From Methanocorpusculum sp. (GTDB lineage: Archaea; Halobacteriota; Methanomicrobia; Methanomicrobiales; Methanocorpusculaceae), in the NCBI GenBank assembly GCA_030539655.1, contig JAUNXT010000001.1, positions 11,307-52,809 on the forward strand: a stretch of DNA of 41,503 nucleotides, read 5' to 3'. The position numbers and the translations under genes were made by a program. Below the pieces are notes generated by a model. That model worked only from the letters and a program-made list of their open reading frames with translations. It was not told where the DNA came from and did not search any database. Positions 34,259 through 37,884 of the stretch are shown piece by piece. Position 1 is the stretch's first letter; the number at the start of each line of letters is the position of its first letter.

Positions 34259-35332
34259 TTAAGTTTCACCATCTTTTGTTCTGCATACATGCTTTTTCCG
34301 GCACTTCGGGCAGAGTACATCCCCGCATTCGCGGCATTTTCTCATCTTTGATTTCGGGAAGGATTTTCCGCAGCCGTCACAGATTATCTCTTCTTCCTCT
34401 TTCTTTCCCTTTGTGTCTGTGCTTTGAGGGGAGGACTCTTTTGCCTCCGGGTTTTCTTCTCTTTTTTTATCTCCGGTCTTCTGCGGTTCCGGTGTTTTTA
34501 TCTCCCGGTTTTCTCCCTTTTCCTTATCTTTTGTCTCCTGCGTATCCGATGTTTTTTTCTCCCGTTTTCCTTCTTTTTCTGCTGCGGTCTCTTTTTGTTT
34601 ATCCTTGTCCTTGTCCTTATCTTTATCCTTATCCTTTCCCTTTCTGTCTCCCGGTTTCGCACAGGAGTGGTGTTTCCTGCATTTCGGACAAAGGACTGCT
34701 CCGCAGTTCTGGCACTTCCTCATCTTTGATTTGGGGTATGAGTTTCCGCATCCGTCGCAGACAATCTGCTCTTCCTCCTCTTCTTTTGCCTCTGCCTCCT
34801 TTTTCTCTCCGTCCGTTTCTACTGCATCTCCGGTTTGTGCCGCTTTTTTGCCGGCGAAGAGCGGAATAAATCCGAGTACGCTTTTTTTCTCGGGTTCAGG
34901 TCTTGGACAGCGGTGTTTTTCCCTGCAGATCTGGCAGAGTACCATGCCGCAGTCGGGGCATTTCCACATGTCGGACTGCGGGTATGACTCTCCACATTCC
35001 TCGCATTCGATGAAAGGATTTAGTGAACGCACATACGCGGAGTAGGCTTCGTCTTCGGACATCGGAGCAGGCATATCGTTTTCCATCTCCTGTGGGGCCG
35101 GCAGGAGTGTTTTTGAGGACGCGGCTGCTGATGCTGCAGAGGCCGATAGTACAGGGGCTGATGGTTTGGGGGAGGTGGACTCTGCTGTGCAGTCATGGGT
35201 TTTCTGACATTCCGCACAGAAGAGTTCTTTGCAGGCGCTGCACTGTTTCAGTTCGGAGATGTCAAAGAGTCTGCCGCACCCGGCGCATCTGAGCCGTATT
35301 GTGTTGTCGTTAAACAGATTGTTGTTCGTCAT
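34259..35332 (-). CDS. Protein with four AN1-like zinc modules and charged linkers
   Basis: The 357-residue protein has four 33-residue copies of C-x2-C-x11-C-x2-C-x4-C-x2-C-x3-H-x-C, at residues 16-48, 110-142, 192-224 and 318-350. Eight ligands per copy suggest two zinc ions in a cross-brace, close to AN1 fingers (which have C-x2-H-x5-H-x-C at the end) and B-boxes. Copies 3 and 4 are nearly identical (CDGCG.S.PKSKMRKC). Linkers are low complexity: Ala/Ser-rich after copy 1, then Lys/Glu/Asp-rich with a KD dipeptide repeat (about 231-246). There is no membrane segment. It is probably cytoplasmic and may bind nucleic acid or proteins. I know no named family with this four-copy layout. Confidence 0.85.
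   Translation of the reverse strand: MTNNNLFNDNTIRLRCAGCGRLFDISELKQCSACKELFCAECQKTHDCTAESTSPKPSAPVLSASAASAAASSKTLLPAPQEMENDMPAPMSEDEAYSAYVRSLNPFIECEECGESYPQSDMWKCPDCGMVLCQICREKHRCPRPEPEKKSVLGFIPLFAGKKAAQTGDAVETDGEKKEAEAKEEEEEQIVCDGCGNSYPKSKMRKCQNCGAVLCPKCRKHHSCAKPGDRKGKDKDKDKDKDKDKQKETAAEKEGKREKKTSDTQETKDKEKGENREIKTPEPQKTGDKKREENPEAKESSPQSTDTKGKKEEEEIICDGCGKSFPKSKMRKCRECGDVLCPKCRKKHVCRTKDGET
34595..34642 (-). repeat. Hexanucleotide repeat encoding Lys-Asp dipeptides
   Basis: Within the zinc-module gene, about seven consecutive Lys-Asp codon pairs form an imperfect 6-bp tandem repeat. Copy-number change would keep the frame and only alter linker length. Confidence 0.7.
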
Positions 35333-35443: not shown

Positions 35444-35804
35444 GGTGGATTCTCATAGGTAAGGAGGATTCGGGAATCCACCTTGAAAAACCAGAAATAA
35501 AGACTTGTTTTTAAAAATAACCCGCCACATCAGTATTTGTTTCTGAAAGGAGGATTCTTTTCGGAAAAGTGTTTCCTATAGACATTATCATTATTATCAT
35601 CTATACCCGTTATTCCCTATAGATGGACTTTTCCGGAAAGAATCCGCCACTCCGGAAGTAAAATTATTAAATTAAGGTTAGAATAGAAAACAAGACAGAA
35701 ATATGGATTATTCTGTGGTGGATTCTCAAAAAAGAATCCACCGGAATCGGGAAAGAATCCACCTTTTGGTGGTGAGAATCCACCTTTTTTCCAAAGAATC
35801 CACC
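35444..35804. repeat. Iteron-like array of the motif AGAATCCACC
   Basis: Ten copies of AGAATCCNCC or its complement lie in 361 bp, some with one end base changed. Forward copies start at 35473 (first base G), 35639 (CGCC), 35733, 35754, 35775 and 35795. Reverse copies (GGNGGATTCT) are at 35444, 35463, 35549 and 35717. The last four forward copies are spaced 21, 21 and 20 bp, i.e. two helical turns, so a protein could bind them on one face. The pair at 35717 and 35733 forms a 10-bp perfect stem. The segment 35461-35484 is a 24-bp palindrome with one mismatched pair. Confidence 0.8.
35549..35648. repeat. Long inverted repeat around an AT-rich core
   Basis: Arms 35549-35581 and 35617-35648 match at 20 of 22 bases over their outer parts (GGAGGATTCTTTTCGGAAAA against GGCGGATTCTTTCCGGAAAA) and again at the inner CTATAG. 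The 35-bp spacer is AT-rich (ATTATCATTATTATCATC). The outer ends are themselves copies of the iteron motif. Confidence 0.7.
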
Positions 35805-35835: not shown

Positions 35836-35925
35836 CCAACCTGAGGAGGGCGAGGGATGAGCGCAGCGAATCGTGAGCCGTGAGCAAGTCCGAAGGACTG
35901 GCGATGAGACACGGCAAAATGGCTC
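35836..35925 (-). repeat. Dispersed hairpin repeat, second copy
   Basis: Read on the minus strand, this segment has CCTTCGGACTTGCTCACGG and GATTCGCTGCGCTC in the same order as the copy near 9090-9125 (CCTTCGGCCTGCTCACGA, ACTGCGTTCGC). It contains the small stem GTCCGAAGGAC. The two copies are degenerate and oppositely oriented. Confidence 0.55.
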
Positions 35926-35955: not shown

Positions 35956-36056
35956 CATTTTGTCACACATTTATACATACCATTATCTTTTCCGAAGAGT
36001 GGTCATACCAAAAATCGAAAGTGTTGACAAAAAGATGTACATTTTGGCACACATTT
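35956..36056 (+). repeat. Pair of 17-bp direct repeats
   Basis: CATTTTGTCACACATTT (35956-35972) and CATTTTGGCACACATTT (36040-36056) differ at one base and are 84 bp apart, i.e. eight helical turns. They lie upstream of the small peptide gene promoter and may be activator or repressor sites. Confidence 0.6.
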
Positions 36057-36193: not shown

Positions 36194-36298
36194 ATGTCTT
36201 CAAACTTCATAACTCTGATTTGCATGGTAGTCATGACTATCCTGCAGGTTGTTCACAGTATATGTGAACTCGCTGACCGGTTGAATAAAAAAAGATGA
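36194..36298 (+). CDS. 34-residue hydrophobic peptide, possible small membrane protein or toxin
   Basis: The ATG at 36194 opens 34 codons ending in TGA at 36296-36298. Residues 4-22 form one hydrophobic helix (FITLICMVVMTILQVV), followed by SICELADRLNKKR, a charged basic tail. The architecture (one helix plus a basic tail) resembles small toxic membrane peptides of type I toxin-antitoxin systems and other tiny membrane regulators. The stop codon lies inside the stem of a strong terminator hairpin, so the transcript is compact and self-contained. I know no archaeal homologue. Coding status rests on start, AGGA, helix and terminator. A structured non-coding RNA is the alternative. Confidence 0.6.
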   Translation: MSSNFITLICMVVMTILQVVHSICELADRLNKKR

Positions 36299-36322
36299 CA
36301 GGAGTCTTCCTGTCATCTTTTT
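36289..36322 (+). terminator. Strong hairpin terminator after the small peptide gene
   Basis: A perfect stem of 13-15 bp (AAAGATGACAGGA paired with TCCTGTCATCTTT) has a 4-base loop GTCT and ends in a run of five thymidines. It overlaps the peptide stop codon. It is much stronger than other terminators in this window, which are mostly bare T tracts. Confidence 0.8.
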
Positions 36323-36717
36323 ACCGGCGGGAAAAGGTTTATATTTTTTTACATCCTATTATGTTATGTAACTCTGTTACTAAACCGGTTGCTTAACAGG
36401 TTTGCGATCAGGGATATGATGTTTGAAACGTGTATGCTGTCCTGGAAGTTGTGACCCGGGACAAACAGGCATCACGTTTTCGGATGATCGGTTTTTTTGC
36501 GAGTGTTTTTATGAGTCAGCTGCAGTGCTCATTTTTACATCAGCCGCGGCCGCACGGCGAAATGACAAAGAGAATCCGCACCGTCAGTTACAAGACGACG
36601 CATAAAATCCGCGCCGGAGTCGCCCCGCACCCCGCTCAATCCCTCTGTAATCCCCCTTCATCTGCTGTCCTCAAACGAAGCCCTTAATCCCTGAAACATC
36701 AAATATACAAACTGCAT

Positions 36718-37884
36718 ATGAAATATATCCTCATCTTAGCAGACGGAGCAGCAGATGAACCGCTCGCGGACCGGGGCGGAAAGACGCCTCTGGAGCTTGC
36801 GGCAAAGCCGAACATGGATAAAATCGCCAGATACGGCCGCTGCGGCATGCTGCAGACCGTCGACCCCTCGCTTACCCCCGGGTCGGATGTTGCAAACATG
36901 TCAATCATGGGCTACGACCCGATGAAATACTACAGCGGACGCGGTGCGCTCGAAGCGCTCAGTATGGGTGTCTCCTTCCCTGAAACCGACTGGGCATACC
37001 GCTGCAACCTGGTAACAATTGAAGACGGAAAGATGAAAGACTTCTCCGCAGGCCACATCACAAGCGAAGAAGGAGCGGCGCTTTTTGCCTCCCTTCAGGA
37101 AAAGTTCCCGGCACTCTCCTTCTACCCCGGGGTATCCTACCGCAACATCATCATGTTCCCCGGCGCAAAAGGCTCTGAATCCTATCCTCCGCACGACATC
37201 GTAGGTGAGGATATCGCTCAGTATCTCCCCAAAGGACCTGATGCGGAGGTTCTTCTCGCCGCCATGAAATGTGCTGAAGAAGTGTTCCGCGATCACCCGG
37301 TAAACAAGGCGCGTATTGCCGCAGGAAAAGCGCCTGCTACGACCATCTGGCCCTGGAGCGGCGGGAAAAAGCCTGAAATGCCTGCATTTGAGGATGTCTA
37401 CGGCAAAAAAGGAGCGGTTATCTCCGCGGTCGATCTGCTCTTCGGAATAGCTGCATGTGCGAAGATGCAGATAATCAAAGTCGAGGGAGCAACCGGATTC
37501 CTTGATACCAACTTCATGGGCAAGGCAAAGGCGGCAGTTGACGCGGCAAACGGGGATGCAGACTTTGTCTATCTCCATGTCGAAGCAACAGATGAGGCAG
37601 GACACATGGGAAGCATTGAGGAAAAGATCCGTGCCATCGAAAATCTGGATAAAGCTGTCGGCTACATTCTGGAGCACTTCGACGGAGTTGTCATGCTGAT
37701 GCCTGACCACCCGACGCCGATTGTGAAAAAGACGCACACCCACGACCCGGTCCCGTTTGCGATAATGGGGCCCGGATTTGAAGCGGACGGCTGTCAGTGC
37801 TACACGGAAAAAGAATGCCGCGAAAAGGGTGCATTCGGGACCATTAAGGCAGCGTCGCTTCTTAAGATGGTGTTTGAGAACTAA
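36718..37884 (+). CDS. apgM: 2,3-bisphosphoglycerate-independent phosphoglycerate mutase, archaeal type
   Basis: The 388-residue enzyme interconverts 3- and 2-phosphoglycerate in gluconeogenesis and glycolysis. It belongs to the alkaline-phosphatase superfamily aPGAM group. The N-terminal ILILADGAADEP holds the first metal aspartate, and TPGSDVANMSIMGYDP the catalytic serine. YLHVEATDEAGHMG and MLMPDHPTP..THTHDPVPF supply the remaining metal ligands. Its length is typical (about 400). A TATA-like AAATATAC lies about 20-25 nt before the ATG, suggesting a leaderless mRNA. It is separated from neighbours by the repeat island. Confidence 0.96.
   Translation: MKYILILADGAADEPLADRGGKTPLELAAKPNMDKIARYGRCGMLQTVDPSLTPGSDVANMSIMGYDPMKYYSGRGALEALSMGVSFPETDWAYRCNLVTIEDGKMKDFSAGHITSEEGAALFASLQEKFPALSFYPGVSYRNIIMFPGAKGSESYPPHDIVGEDIAQYLPKGPDAEVLLAAMKCAEEVFRDHPVNKARIAAGKAPATTIWPWSGGKKPEMPAFEDVYGKKGAVISAVDLLFGIAACAKMQIIKVEGATGFLDTNFMGKAKAAVDAANGDADFVYLHVEATDEAGHMGSIEEKIRAIENLDKAVGYILEHFDGVVMLMPDHPTPIVKKTHTHDPVPFAIMGPGFEADGCQCYTEKECREKGAFGTIKAASLLKMVFEN

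Follow-up and report, generated by a model that had tools for sequence, protein, structure and literature searches.

A ten-site array in Methanocorpusculum sp. as the putative orphan origin of a mobile replicon

Replication origins of the iteron type, known from plasmids and viruses, combine a short site repeated many times, helical spacing within a terminal cluster, an AT-rich stretch by a fixed site and an initiator-type gene in cis. We describe here an array in a 41,503-nucleotide stretch of Methanocorpusculum sp. DNA (hereafter the window) that shares the first three features, and whose relatives carry the initiator-type gene in cis. It differs from iteron-type origins in that the window array has no initiator in cis and in that sites of both orientations follow a fixed order around the AT run; furthermore, the putative initiator of the array family matches no Pfam or NCBIfam model, and the motif varies from copy to copy. 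Archaeal ORB origins, associated with Orc1/Cdc6, likewise have inverted sites flanking AT-rich DNA; however, the window motif is not an ORB, does not lie beside orc1 or cdc6, and is not conserved in the order. A further comparison is offered by the archaeo-eukaryotic PrimPol replication proteins, which are characterized by primase motifs I (hhhDhD), II (sxH) and III (hD) (PMC5862659). Longer relatives of the AAA+ protein discussed below appear to carry these three motifs N-terminal to the AAA+ part and resemble plasmid proteins, whereas the members that adjoin arrays in the genus lack the primase region, and a search among known families did not find the exact AAA+ family.

The array holds ten GAATCCACC-type sites, some on each strand, which surround an AT-rich stretch. 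Its features and the flanking genes are as follows (window positions):

34259-35332, minus strand: zinc-ribbon gene, 357 aa, lineage-specific, its start 112 bp away from the array; regarded as lying outside the element
35444-35804, no strand: whole array, putative orphan initiator-binding origin
35444-35452, minus strand: site 1, exact 9-mer
35463-35471, minus strand: site 2, GAATCCTCC, one mismatch; missed by the 10-mer search
35474-35482, plus strand: site 3, exact 9-mer; inverted partner of site 2
35540-35657, no strand: central inverted repeat, 31-nt arms at 35540-35570 and 35627-35657, 81% complementary; contains sites 4 and 5
35549-35557, minus strand: site 4, GAATCCTCC, one mismatch; within the left arm of the inverted repeat
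35640-35648, plus strand: site 5, GAATCCGCC, one mismatch; within the right arm of the inverted repeat
35661-35690, no strand: AT-rich stretch, 87% A+T over 30 bp; candidate unwinding element
35717-35742, no strand: sites 6 and 7, inverted pair GGTGGATTC...GAATCCACC; start of the terminal cluster
35755-35763, plus strand: site 8, exact 9-mer
35776-35784, plus strand: site 9, exact 9-mer
35796-35804, plus strand: site 10, exact 9-mer
36718-37884, plus strand: apgM, 2,3-bisphosphoglycerate-independent phosphoglycerate mutase, a housekeeping gene whose upstream side varies across the genus

The original prediction, made from the letters of this DNA, described ten copies of a 10-mer in both orientations, with four forward copies starting at 35733, 35754, 35775 and 35795 and spaced by 21, 21 and 20 bp. 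The four starts and their spacing are exact, and two further exact copies of AGAATCCACC occupy the minus strand at 35444 and 35717. As an exact 10-mer, the motif is present six times in 361 bp; the count of ten is obtained with the 9-mer GAATCCACC when one mismatch is allowed, which gives ten sites that do not overlap. Seven of these are exact, and the other three (minus strand at 35463 and 35549, plus strand at 35640) differ at one position. Such a repetition is beyond chance: the 10-mer with up to one mismatch has 11 matches in the window against 3.2 expected, a number reached in none of 100 shuffles. A high random frequency across the genome had been named as the observation that would speak against a specific array. 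The motif is not frequent: exact AGAATCCACC occurs eight times in the whole 1,201,399-base assembly, six of them inside the array, and its reversed control pattern does not occur in the assembly at all. Site order is --+-+[AT-rich]-++++, with gaps of 19, 11, 75, 91, 77, 17, 21, 21 and 20 bp.

No initiator gene or remnant was detected in the window, where the best initiator-profile match has an E value of 5, and we name the array an orphan, not a complete origin, for this reason. This agrees with the earlier statement that no replication or CRISPR gene adjoins the array, and the zinc gene was correctly placed nearby. A BLAST search of the array against phages and plasmids returned nothing significant, an Rfam search of the window gave no match, and no other full copy of the element was found. 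Among 231 other genomes of the order, the motif pair has a single match, in one genome (G045). Viral and genome collections yielded 112 and 18 matches to motif pairs, respectively; those inspected proved to be repeats within coding sequence, bacterial loci or intergenic sites of bacteria, and none has the layout of the window array.

We scanned 882 kb of the same genome, in stretches, for repeat clusters, with 400 kb of Markov sequence as a control. No control cluster rose above the lowest level. In the genome, apart from a CRISPR and some weaker clusters, either low-copy or coding, we identified five further strong arrays:

C42, 84.2 kb: motif ACTTTACC, gene-linked
C48, 31 kb: motif ACTTTACC, orphan
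C8, 5.3 kb: motif ACTTTACC, orphan
C28, 15 kb: motif GACTTTCC, gene-linked
C3, contig end: motif GAATTGCAC

The start of a CRISPR array with repeat ATTTCAATCCACGCACCCGCGTGGGGTGCGAC lies on another contig (C23, locus L403, 1-330); its four complete spacers match nothing but themselves among the sequences compared. In another genome, an array of TGTCAGACA/TGTCTGACA repeats lies between two small ribbon-helix-helix-like genes (G007:C14, locus L303, 11500-11700) and has a different layout.

The C42 and C28 arrays begin at the 3' end of an AAA+ gene. Its product, about 470 aa long, has a helix-turn-helix-like region at the C terminus, and the C42 and C28 proteins share about 50% identity. The same protein is found in two relatives, G010 and G009, where it is followed by arrays of ACTTCAACA and CACGTAAA, respectively. 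In all, an array lies directly 3' of the gene in four of the six genus copies found; the other two (G048 and G003) show no clear exact-repeat array. Each gene-linked array covers about 320 bp, with its own 8-9-bp motif in both orientations and a pure AT run (97-100% AT). The AT-rich stretch at 35661-35690 of the window occupies the same place but is weaker. The AAA+ family is present in 138 of the 232 genomes of the order, where most members are longer proteins. In g4, a genus of another family, GGTGCAAA-type repeats follow the AAA+ gene on its 3' side in several species; most long forms are accompanied by no clear exact-repeat array.

Pfam and NCBIfam searches of the AAA+ protein returned no family model, only weak AAA matches, and the short form has no relative by sequence in viral contigs, phages or the PDB. 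N-terminal to the AAA+ part, the longer relatives contain PIDLD, SGNGAH and a VD stretch, arranged in this sequence, which, judged by eye, would fit primase motifs I-III of PMC5862659. The N-terminal part of one long relative (L333) is 43% identical to a methanogen plasmid protein (2e-76), and its AAA+ part matches bacterial plasmid proteins (6e-4 to 4e-6), several of which are annotated as DNA primase or have primase-type zinc-finger or toprim domains. In G010, the AAA+ gene has a Sak4-like recombination gene on one side and, on the other, the terminase, head, tape-measure and tail genes of a tailed provirus. Given the primase-type matches and the provirus context, the natural reading of the AAA+ protein is that of a putative replication initiator. 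In both copies of the genome under study and in G009, the AAA+ gene has as its partner a divergent gene of the ribbon-helix-helix plus zinc-ribbon type.

The window array resembles the gene-linked arrays in its geometry. Layouts are given below with signs relative to each array's own motif:

C8: --+-+[AT]-+++, gaps 10, 15, 80, 90, 72, 15, 11, 8
C28 (gene-linked): ----+-++[AT]-+++, gaps 9, 10, 10, 17, 68, 73, 9, 78, 18, 10, 9
C42 (gene-linked): ++-+[AT]-+++, gaps 30, 70, 90, 72, 15, 11, 8
G010 (gene-linked, end of layout): -+[AT]-++++, gaps 83 across the AT run, then 13, 11, 11, 8

Site order, orientation and spacing around the AT run of the window array match those of C8, C28 and C42, the AT run starting about 10-20 bp after the last preceding plus site. 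For C8, the gaps to be compared are 19, 11, 75, 91, 77 and 17 in the window against 10, 15, 80, 90, 72 and 15. The C8 orientation string arises in 1.4% of random ten-site arrays, and together with spacing as close as that observed in 0 of 2,000,000, a figure somewhat weakened by the choice of C8 as template after inspection. The window array also passed a looser, preset layout test that 0.7% of random arrays passed; C3 narrowly failed it, owing to one 108-bp gap. The spacing of the terminal tandem sites sets two groups apart, at 20-21 bp in the window and C3 arrays only and 8-11 bp in the gene-linked arrays. By sequence, the window array shows no significant similarity to the gene-linked arrays (best E = 0.026), so that its link to them rests on layout and on C3.

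The C3 array is the only one with significant sequence similarity to the window array, and the alignment of the two runs the length of the array, with BLAST values of 2e-8 and 4e-5 for two of its parts. At eight paired sites, the GAAT half is identical in 32 of 32 letters, whereas the second half agrees in 9 of 40: CCACC in the window is replaced by TGCAC in C3 at every one of the eight. The backbones are 62% identical, and the sites of each array are 97-98% identical to their own consensus. That GAAT is kept while CCACC changes jointly to TGCAC is the mark of sites read by a protein, since independent point mutation would hardly produce it. The protein that reads these sites would have changed together with them. 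A search of the family for the pattern ATTCTCAAAAAAGAAT with one mismatch gave matches of which only those in the window and C3 lie in such arrays. The C3 array stops with its contig, and an adjoining gene, if any, would lie beyond the contig end. Conservation in close relatives had been proposed as a check of the original prediction. The exact motif is not conserved, and what is conserved is the layout, with a motif that changes between copies; as the C3 array illustrates, a test for conservation of the exact motif is misleading here.

Arrays without an adjoining gene are not peculiar to the window. Homology to the gene-linked C42 array extends over 220 bp (75%) in C48 and over 286 bp (79%) in C8, yet no initiator gene adjoins either of these arrays, and they provide a precedent in the same genome for an orphan array. 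Our preferred reading, to which we assign a probability of roughly 0.7, is that the window array is an orphan origin, made up of initiator-binding iterons and an AT-rich stretch, and that the mobile replicon to which it belongs, now integrated, is probably a provirus or plasmid-like element of this methanogen lineage. Three things lead us from array to origin: the primase-AAA+ gene family linked in cis, the AT run, and the provirus setting in G010. An AAA+ initiator of the type described, with its C-terminal helix-turn-helix-like region, would bind the ten GAATCCACC sites. With the spaced sites on one side of the AT-rich stretch and the tandem cluster on the other, cooperative binding may wrap and melt this stretch and so allow priming; we infer binding, melting and replication at the window array by analogy with iteron origins in general. 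The initiator would have been lost, rather than always supplied in trans; none with the window motif was found in the assembly, which is 77% complete and fragmented. Replication was among the functions first suggested for this site, and it is as an iteron-like site, with a layout shared by AAA+-linked and provirus arrays, that the suggestion is best supported, and not as the origin of the host itself.

Two other readings keep the array in the same system. The main rival, which we nevertheless hold to be unlikely, accepts the same initiator family and an orphan site of a mobile element, and assigns the array to segregation, copy-number control (handcuffing) or autoregulation. Partition sites also hold arrays of 8-11-bp sites in both orientations, and ribbon-helix-helix proteins are often found in partition and copy control; the pairing of a ribbon-helix-helix gene with the initiator-type gene in three cases fits this idea. 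However, the arrays lie 3' of the AAA+ gene and not at the ribbon-helix-helix promoter, and all of them have an AT run adjoining a fixed site. A decidedly unlikely possibility is that the orphan arrays are kept as working sites by the host or by small satellites, either as decoys that would titrate the initiator of an incoming virus or as minimal origins that would hijack a resident initiator. It is suggested by the motif common to the resident C42 gene and the orphans C8 and C48, and by the near-perfect sites of the window and C3 arrays on backbones that differ by about 38%.

The remaining readings take the array out of this system. Ends of IS21-, Tn7- and Mu-type transposons contain several transposase sites at steps of about 20 bp, inverted between the ends, as in the window array, which could then be a MITE-like relic whose inside was lost. 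Bacterial contigs do contain a similar motif pair ahead of a Tn5053-like transposase gene, as AGAATCCACC N9 AGAATCCACC before TniA-TniB-TniQ in alphaproteobacteria (L244, L247 and L248; genes checked in L244 and L248); we take this to be a coincidence. Against a transposon stand a search for IS21 transposase, which found none in this genome, the single copy of the element, the lack by eye of a convincing terminal repeat or target duplication, and the association of arrays of such layout with the AAA+ primase-type family instead, and we regard this explanation as very unlikely. Slightly further down the scale, and highly improbable in our view, is a large operator or enhancer for the zinc-ribbon gene, an option raised by the original prediction, or for apgM. 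The short distance to the zinc-ribbon gene and a two-turn spacing suited to cooperative regulators speak for it. Yet the zinc-ribbon gene is lineage-specific and its paralog on C31 has no motif upstream; apgM is present in 31 of 31 genomes searched, while no array lies near it in relatives; and arrays of the same layout stand between unrelated genes, for example the aro operon and SepRS (O-phosphoseryl-tRNA synthetase). The SepRS gene near a related array, together with the Orc1/Cdc6 genes of the genome, marks the organism as a methanogenic archaeon. The array is extremely unlikely to be the chromosomal origin of the host or a second, Cdc6-dependent origin, even though inverted sites around AT-rich DNA recall ORB origins and, in other families of the order, six genomes have a cdc6 paralog at a distance of 0.3-4 kb from apgM. 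In this genome, ORB-like TCCAGTGGAAA sites are located upstream of orc1 on C8, as they are near orc1 in relatives; the window motif differs from these and lies close to neither cdc6 gene, and none of the other genomes of the order has the array. We reject the host oriC on the ground that the ORB-like sites adjoin orc1 on C8 and not the window array.

A conserved apgM promoter region was also considered and rejected, as the upstream side of apgM differs across the genus; it follows from this difference among relatives that the array sits in a variable junction. Several other elements are present in the same interval. A dispersed repeat of about 30 bp (GCAAGTCCGAAGGACTGGCGATGAGAC) at 35875-35906 has many copies in this genome and in four relatives. 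Two copies of CATTTTGKCACACATTT lie at 35956-36056, and similar stretches, TTGGCACACATTTTGTACA, are found upstream of the gene adjoining the second cdc6 on C47 (L264, 5950-6080). Positions 36194-36298 may encode a hydrophobic protein of 34 aa, MSSNFITLICMVVMTILQVVHSICELADRLNKKR, preceded by a structured-looking leader and followed by a terminator-like hairpin; the putative protein has no Pfam match and is reminiscent of small type I toxin-like proteins. The region 36287-36548, which has no Rfam match, is 75% similar to the end of contig C15 (10188-10454), which also closes with a similar terminator-like hairpin. The two are a duplicated intergenic unit, perhaps with a small RNA. The proximity of apgM to a cdc6 paralog in the six genomes of other families (L095-L102, L069-L075) does not occur in this genus. 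In another species, eight 15-bp tandem repeats at a contig start are located about 270-390 bp upstream of apgM (G018:C4, L093, 1-120). The tailed provirus of G010 (G010:C19, L409-L411) also encodes a reverse transcriptase like those of diversity-generating elements.

The replication of viruses and plasmids in methanogens of the Methanomicrobiales type is poorly known. The present comparison yields an uncharacterised initiator-type family that is widespread in the order (the 138 genomes above) and, next to four of the genes in the genus, a candidate origin whose geometry is fixed. It also offers a natural series of specificity changes, from CCACC to TGCAC at every site and between ACTTTACC and GACTTTCC within one genome, in which protein-DNA recognition could be mapped directly. 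The gene and its array may be a starting point for shuttle vectors, and the gene-less arrays indicate that such sites persist in the chromosome.
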